Of a stretch of DNA of 64,000 nt, positions 52,050-52,972 are shown piece by piece. How positions within the stretch are numbered: position 1 is the stretch's first letter; every line of letters begins with the position of its first letter. The stretch spans positions 62,001 through 126,000 of the forward strand of contig NZ_JQGK01000007.1 of NCBI RefSeq assembly GCF_000743525.1, in the 5' to 3' direction. The position numbers and the translations under genes are program-made. The notes beneath the pieces were generated by a model. The model was given only the letters and a program-made list of their open reading frames with translations, made no database searches and was not told the origin of the DNA. This DNA comes from Sulfurospirillum sp. SCADC (GTDB taxonomy: Bacteria > Campylobacterota > Campylobacteria > Campylobacterales > Sulfurospirillaceae).

Positions 52050-52565
52050 TTACCCTTTATGTTTTGGTTGCTGGAAAATCATGTAAATGATAAAGGCAAA
52101 AAAGGCGACCGTAATAGAGGTAAATAGCAGTGAAAATGTTTTAACCACAACGTAAGCGACGATCAAAATGGAAAGCAAGGTTGGCACTTCATTGTACGCG
52201 CGGAAGAATTTGCCGCTTTGGGTGCATTCATCGTTTTCCAACTGTACACGGTAGTATTCCAATGAAAAAGAGTATGCGGTTAAAAGCGCAACTACCGTTA
52301 ATTTAGCGTAAAGCCATTCGCCTGATTCAAATAAAATAGGGTTGATGATCAGCATCGCTGCACCGCTTAAAAGCGTTGCCCAAAAGGCAGGCAGACCGAT
52401 GTATTTGTAGATTTTGTACTCTTGAATCTTCACCACTTCGACAAATTCGCTTTTGTGTGCGTTTTCAACATGGTAGACAAAAAGACGTGGCAGGTAAAAA
52501 AGCATCGCCATCCACGACATAAACGACATAACGTGAAATGTTAAAATCCAACTGTAGTACTCCAT
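52050..52565 (-). CDS. hemJ: Protoporphyrinogen IX oxidase HemJ
   Basis: A 171-aa, four-to-five-helix membrane protein with the HemJ signature MSWMAMLFYLPRLFVYH, including the essential His near residue 11 (LTFHVMSF) and the downstream Arg/His. It oxidises protoporphyrinogen in heme synthesis in organisms lacking HemG/HemY. AGGAGT precedes the ATG. Confidence 0.9.
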   Translation of the reverse strand: MEYYSWILTFHVMSFMSWMAMLFYLPRLFVYHVENAHKSEFVEVVKIQEYKIYKYIGLPAFWATLLSGAAMLIINPILFESGEWLYAKLTVVALLTAYSFSLEYYRVQLENDECTQSGKFFRAYNEVPTLLSILIVAYVVVKTFSLLFTSITVAFFAFIIYMIFQQPKHKG

Positions 52566-52627: not shown

Positions 52628-52930
52628 TTAACAACACTCCATTTCAGCTTTTTCCATCAGTTCGATTCCTTTTTTAAAATCATACGTTTCAAAAAGAGCC
52701 GAAAGATAAAAAACATGAGAGCAGATGTGGTACAAAATGTCCTTAGAATAGTGCTTCGCAAAAACCGCTTTATAATCTTTAGGAATCAATGTCTCAAAAC
52801 GAATCCACAAACCATCTTTAGCTTCAGGATACAGATCAAAGAGTTCATACATGGCATCAAGCACTTGGGTTGCATTTTCATAGCAGTCAATGTTATGAAA
52901 ACTCACATATCGATCACGAATTTCGTCCAT
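52628..52930 (-). CDS. cowN: CowN, nitrogenase-protecting protein
   Basis: A 100-aa soluble protein with the CowN features DRYVSFHNIDC at the N terminus and CSHVFYLSALFETYDF plus a terminal ECC. CowN sustains N2 fixation when carbon monoxide is present by protecting nitrogenase. Its presence implies that nif genes exist elsewhere. The ATG at 52930 has AAGG nine bases upstream and a sigma-54-type promoter just before it. Confidence 0.87.
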   Translation of the reverse strand: MDEIRDRYVSFHNIDCYENATQVLDAMYELFDLYPEAKDGLWIRFETLIPKDYKAVFAKHYSKDILYHICSHVFYLSALFETYDFKKGIELMEKAEMECC

Positions 52931-52956
52931 GTTTGGATGCCTTTTTACGTGACATA

Positions 52957-52972
52957 TGCACGTTGTGTTCCA
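52957..52972 (-). promoter_or_regulatory. Sigma-54-type promoter of cowN
   Basis: On the minus strand the sequence TGGAACACAACGTGCA matches the -24/-12 consensus (TGGCAC-N5-TTGCA) at 10 of the 11 or so informative positions apart from two substitutions, keeping the invariant GG and GC with the required spacing. The predicted start near 52946 gives a leader of about 16 nt that still includes the ribosome-binding site. This fits NifA/RpoN control of a nitrogen-fixation accessory gene. No NifA upstream site was found by eye. Confidence 0.6.

Follow-up and report, generated by a model that had tools for sequence, protein, structure and literature searches.

In this Sulfurospirillum strain, cowN would be part of the nitrogen-fixation regulon, and the encoded protein would allow Mo-nitrogenase to function in the presence of CO. 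The gene would be read from a nif-class -24/-12 promoter by sigma-54 RNA polymerase, most likely with the nif-linked factor RpoN2. NifA would supply the ATPase step without a bound upstream activator sequence (UAS), its Fis-type domain being lost. We consider it probable that RpoN2 picks the promoter and that NifA activates cowN and the nif genes without tethering. By itself, a cowN gene with a sigma-54 promoter is of a known kind and unremarkable. If the proposed control is true, a genus of likely diazotrophs with a NifA unable to bind an enhancer provides a natural experiment on sigma-54 specificity without enhancers.

The window, i.e., the whole stretch of 64,000 nucleotides that was analysed, is part of a 2.66-Mb draft genome. 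The following features were located at cowN:

52628..52930, minus strand: cowN coding sequence, stop included (ATG at 52930, stop at 52628; 100 aa), assigned by profile matches and alignment
52931..52946, minus strand: predicted 16-nt leader with the predicted start at 52946, by the 12-nt distance rule
52940..52946, minus strand: AAAAAGG, conserved, probable ribosome-binding site, position taken from the sequence
52957..52972, minus strand: sigma-54 element TGGAACACAACGTGCA, GG-N10-GC, nif class (A at -11)
52050..52565, minus strand: hemJ (protoporphyrinogen oxidase), the next gene downstream of cowN after a 62-nt gap

The identity of the gene was observed directly. The product matched the Pfam family CowN (PF20543) with 80.7 bits (cut-off 27) and the NCBIfam family NF033689 with 62 bits (cut-off 48), in both cases over nearly the full length, so that both curated cut-offs bear out the name CowN given in an earlier, sequence-only reading of this DNA. 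The -12 C of TGGAACACAACGTGCA lies at 52958, which sets the predicted start at 52946 and the leader at 16 nt. A GG-N10-GC element with -24/-12 spacing and a 16-nt leader had been described in the same reading; the coordinates agree with it, and the element proved to be conserved at the cowN genes of the genus. Co-transcription of hemJ with cowN is possible. No relatives of CowN were found in viral contigs, and a sequence search yielded no solved CowN structure.

The nif genes were sought in the whole genome. The nifH, nifD, nifK, nifB, and nifT genes scored over the NCBIfam cut-offs (nifD with 820 bits), and a nifE-like gene (492.5 bits, cut-off 505.1) and NifA (496 bits, cut-off 528.85) were both slightly under. 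The sequence-only reading had proposed a diazotrophic lifestyle, to be checked by a search for nifHDK and nifA, together with RpoN/NifA-type control. The search found nifHDK and the NifA match just given, and such control is supported by the presence of nif genes, NifA, and two rpoN genes in the genome. The reading was also right that cowN lies outside any nif cluster in the window, but nif genes are located on contigs C1 and C20. Also encoded is an anaerobic CO dehydrogenase (734 bits); its cluster is cooF-cooS-cooC-like, and ORFs beside the CO dehydrogenase genes were judged hydrogenase-like from their translated starts. As the genome encodes this cluster, CO is a plausible factor for the organism. 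According to the available text of PMC4794192, nif genes in the genus Sulfurospirillum are already known.

The distribution of cowN follows that of nitrogenase. Among 44 genomes of the family, cowN was found in 23 and nifD over the cut-off in 21; 20 genomes have both genes and 20 neither (Fisher p 2e-8). The exceptions are three genomes (G023, G033, and G041) that have cowN, with nifD limited to fragments or NifE-like matches, and one genome (G026, 88% complete) that has nifD without cowN. In related genera, cowN lies within the nif operon between ORFs labelled NifX-like from their translated starts, and it faces nifE. The Sulfurospirillum cowN is relocated, mostly adjoining or near hemJ, and has its own promoter.

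NifA is a textbook enhancer-binding protein. The NifA of this genome (L007) consists of 467 aa and ends 43 residues past the WPGNVREL motif. Pfam detected the GAF, Sigma54_activat, and AAA lid domains in it, with GAFTDA, Walker A, and Walker B intact, and HTH_8 was absent; the same search detected HTH_8 in L070, L089, and the AnfA protein L169. The match to TIGR01817 covers the profile only to position 439 of 534. The family includes 24 genomes of the genus, and NifA was read in 21 of them; it is split over two frames in G031, which was left out, and no NifA match was obtained in G014 and G029. The absence of the domain is a direct observation: all 21 proteins stop after the AAA+ domain without a C-terminal Fis-type HTH. 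Their tails past WPGNVREL have 30-43 residues, in contrast to 89-115 in HTH-bearing proteins, and most members of the genus carry a fairly conserved new tail, LPAFNQKLMCQRRIMSEEE, in place of the HTH. Three relatives, G035 (S. arcachonense), G041, and G042, have a NifA that keeps the HTH. Eight genomes of the genus, this one not among them, encode an AnfA-like activator with HTH, which could help NifA in those eight.

In a sample of the phylum, 70 of 397 genomes gave a strong NifA match. Among the proteins read, HTH-less NifA was found in four g42 genomes, one g41 genome, and two g55 genomes, besides G040, whose NifA is cut at the 5' end. The NifA tree (57 rows) implies at least four changes of HTH state. 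The NifA set does not include L189-L192 (no ORF) and L202 (partial). L194-L196, L198-L200, L208, L211-L214, L216, and L218 were read and kept outside the tree, as were the AnfA rows L170, L171, L173, L175, and L176. We considered and rejected a single HTH loss, the tree needing at least four changes; the AU test of one clade, chosen post hoc on the tree, gave a marginal p of 0.043.

The gene order gave further information. In the genus, both the HTH and the next gene (~175 aa) are missing, and nifA directly adjoins a SIR2-like gene; the HTH-less lineages g42 and g41 retain the ~175-aa gene after nifA. This difference in operon layout agrees with separate HTH losses and points to at least two such events. 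The SIR2-like gene encodes 276 aa (L007, 621-1451), overlaps the end of nifA by 13 nt, and is conserved downstream of nifA in several lineages. In the tree, the NifA of L224 and L225 (G263 and G378; g55, a different family) is placed among the Sulfurospirillum proteins, and it has the same tail, which suggests nif gene transfer.

As NifA lacks its DNA-binding domain, the control of cowN cannot take the textbook UAS-bound route. The TGT-N10-ACA motif is absent from the 300 bp upstream of the window cowN. It was found upstream of the promoter at one of 19 cowN genes of the genus (1.24 expected) and at none of 18 nifH genes (1.22 expected), which is no enrichment. In relatives with an HTH-bearing NifA, the motif precedes nifH in 5 of 19 cases (1.17 expected), and in HTH-less lineages outside the genus in one of eight. 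The contrast between HTH-bearing and HTH-less NifA is not significant (p 0.63 without the genus, 0.069 with it). By the motif counts, the canonical UAS appears clearly to be missing in the genus, and a tie between its absence and the loss of the NifA domain is only suggestive. A CooA-like site, tGTCg-N6-tGACa, was sought in two strict forms and found in none of the 19 cowN upstream regions of the genus.

Canonical control would be retained if NifA, via a partner or a hidden DNA-binding surface, bound an unknown upstream site and looped to cowN. In its favour, the HTH gives way to the new tail in most members of the genus. A partnership of this kind is described in the accessible part of PMC11999139 for FleT of Cereibacter sphaeroides, which lacks the domain and works paired with the domain-bearing FleQ. 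We nevertheless regard canonical control as unlikely. Besides the missing Fis-type HTH and the lack of TGT-N10-ACA enrichment, the 40 bases preceding the cowN element in 19 regions of the genus contain no conserved block above ~1.3 bits. Most columns there hold less than 1 bit, and the flanks diverge. Moreover, this genome has no HTH-bearing activator left that might act as the partner.

The possible selection of promoters by RpoN2 was examined at the level of sigma factors and their sites. Two rpoN genes were observed in the genome, one on contig C1 and the other (RpoN2) on C20 near the nif genes; their products are 42% identical. All seven Sulfurospirillum genomes examined, G000 among them, have the RpoN2 type in their nif stretch, and it also occurs in the nif regions of G035, G040, G041, G042, G325, G387, and G393. 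A tblastn search of the stretches L306-L309, L311, and L312 (E up to 10) detected no RpoN; the RpoN of G387 and G393 lies in other stretches (L278 and L310), and that of G173, G417, and G182 may lie outside the stretch searched. RpoN1 shares the RpoN box, VRRTITKYR, with every nif-type sequence long enough to include it (that of G041 is cut off). The HTH preceding the box, which we take to be the region reading -12, is ESTISRA followed by V/I, S/A, and NKY in the nif type and PSTISRAIAGKY in RpoN1, the latter represented by this genome only.

Two classes of sigma-54 promoters were also observed. GGAAY-N6-TGCW sites number 102 in the genome, in comparison to 55 for the reversed control. The stricter pattern GGAAYAC-N4-TGCA is present in seven of the 100 sites listed (2.2 expected), and all seven precede nif- or anf-associated genes. 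The targets are nifH, the nifE-like gene, a ferredoxin gene of the nif region, nifB, cowN, a Rop-like (PF05082) ORF of a presumably nif-associated family, and an anfD-like relic. Between the nifE-like site and the called start there are only 26 nt, which would leave nearly no leader. In the flagellar class, the pattern is GGAAY-N5-TTGCTT; flgH, flgI, the gene of an FlgE/F/G protein, that of a rod protein, and fliK, all Pfam-confirmed, read TTGCT. The base at -11 is A in four of four nif promoters, with cowN left out, vs none of five flagellar ones (p 0.008), a comparison made in one genome on few sites.

Two of the nif-class sites touch genes of separate interest. The Rop-like gene (L129, C9:9792 onward) has a nif-class promoter and a good ribosome-binding site, and it is a candidate for a new member of the nif regulon. 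The relic of an Fe-nitrogenase alpha-chain gene, which we take to be anfD-like, is spread over two frames (L015, C1:13210-13910), and no AnfA is left in the genome.

Strong Sigma54_activat matches in this genome are confined to NifA and FlgR, the six others scoring 21.7-28.8 bits. FlgR, too, is without an HTH, and in principle any sigma-54 promoter might be within its reach. FlgR with RpoN1 might thus activate cowN, and the gene would then follow the flagellar programme and not nitrogen status. We find this crosstalk very unlikely, because in all 19 genes the cowN core is of the nif class and carries A at -11, in contrast to the flagellar TTGCT, and because cowN tracks nifD across the 44 family genomes.

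Relatives with an HTH-bearing NifA share the nif core, GGAAC-N6-TGCA, at nifH, and RpoN2 is found among such relatives as well. This indicates that the promoter class and RpoN2 came first. The idea that the nif core evolved to replace the UAS was dropped, since the core is common to the HTH-bearing relatives.

The conservation of the cowN element itself was observed directly. GGAAYACNNNNTGCA, with the nif-class pattern GGAAYAC-N4-TGCA, marks a single site in the window, upstream of cowN (0.07 expected). The element is conserved in all 19 cowN upstream regions of the genus, one of them with a degenerate -12 TGT. When the regions were aligned on it, GG, A(+3), A(+7), T, G, and A(-11) were invariant across all 19, and the -12 C was shared by 18. 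The spacing from GG to ATG is 39-41 nt in 18 of the 19 genes and 60 nt in G013. Many sites within coding regions of the window reach a similar simple score; hence, the cowN element is not distinctive by score alone, and we take it as real because of its conservation across the 19 regions. The abundance of such sites inside genes, and the lack of a nif-class element at a second cowN on contig C14, speak for the alternative that the element is fortuitous or secondary and that cowN is read from a sigma-70 promoter. The footprint conserved in 19 genomes makes this highly improbable, as does a consensus scan of the minus strand between 52540 and 53160, which revealed no sigma-70-like site.

The second cowN (L001 / L010, C14:1279-1584) is 75% identical to the window copy. 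It is divergent from an AraC-type regulator, which consists of two ORFs here and is intact (364 aa) in UBA1314 (L039, L245). The window CowN carries two substitutions, D61Y and E86K, seen in no other sequence of the genus that was compared; position 61 is D in all the others, and position 86 is E except for one D and one Q. They may reflect relaxed constraint or a sequencing error. That the window cowN is decaying in this strain and the intact C14 copy carries the function would agree with these substitutions, yet it is scarcely credible, given that the window copy keeps its open frame, its promoter, and all 25 invariant columns of a 12-sequence alignment, and that the regulator beside the C14 copy is itself broken.

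The window also contains a highly iterated palindrome. TTTACATGTAAA occurs at 16 sites (0.04 expected) and TTACATGTAA at 25 (0.12 expected), the palindrome sites including 52015, 53040, and 53504. Stretches from genomes of the genus, this one included, hold TTACATGTAA at a density of ~0.43 per kb, compared with 0.35 in g4/g5 and 0.017 in other families. A literature search with the exact string gave no match that concerned these bacteria by its title or the start of its abstract. The palindrome could play a part in uptake, methylation, or chromosome organisation.

Returning to control by RpoN2 and untethered NifA, nif and flagellar sigma-54 genes would be told apart mainly by which RpoN reads -12/-11 (TGCA for nif, TTGCT for flagella), and the pairing of each RpoN with its own activator would add specificity. 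CO protection, the RpoN2-NifA pairing, and untethered activation are what we infer for this organism. A reading that fits is that RpoN2 and the promoter class made the DNA grip of NifA dispensable, and that the grip was then lost several times. A wider proposal would hold for the nif genes of Campylobacterota: a dedicated RpoN2 reads promoters with A at -11, the NifA domain was lost repeatedly, once for the whole of Sulfurospirillum, and NifA acts from solution with no UAS. We see the chances for and against this proposal as about equal. Counted against the model were the nif core and RpoN2 shared with HTH-bearing relatives, the weak UAS contrast, and the two odd CowN substitutions. With only two activators, both lacking a DNA-binding domain, and two RpoN paralogues, promoter choice by RpoN and tethering of the activator become testable alternatives. 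As a gene away from the nif cluster with a short isolated promoter, cowN makes a practical reporter.

In the accessible portions of the open-licence literature, we found no NifA without a DNA-binding domain and no UAS-free nif regulon in this phylum; the available text of PMC12316311 and PMC7755780 holds nothing on NifA in the genus Sulfurospirillum. Within these bounds, a nif regulon served by an HTH-less NifA and a dedicated RpoN would be a new variant.

The closest known systems share parts of the proposed control. The cowN genes of Rhodobacter capsulatus and Gluconacetobacter diazotrophicus belong to the CowN family, as does the gene described here; their expression depends on NifA, and they have a role in N2 fixation under CO (PMC8047169, available text). 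In those species, cowN is preceded by a NifA site (TGT-N10-ACA) and a CooA site, whereas in the genus Sulfurospirillum neither occurs beyond chance and NifA has no DNA-binding domain. Helicobacter pylori FlgR and Chlamydia CtcC are likewise sigma-54 activators without a C-terminal DNA-binding domain, and the accessible part of PMC3162934 calls FlgR the sole such activator of Campylobacter and other Epsilonproteobacteria. Unlike these two, the activator here is the GAF-AAA+ NifA of the nif cluster. In C. sphaeroides, as proposed here, separate sigma-54 paralogues serve nif (RpoN1/NifA) and flagella (RpoN2/FleQ-FleT), and the -11 base together with the cognate bEBP-RpoN pairing separates the two sets of genes (PMC11999139, in the portion available). 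The -11 position is the same in both cases, although the phyla are unrelated and the RpoN sequences and promoters differ. One activator of C. sphaeroides, FleT, is without a DNA-binding domain and NifA is counted there as having it, whereas here both NifA and FlgR are without one.
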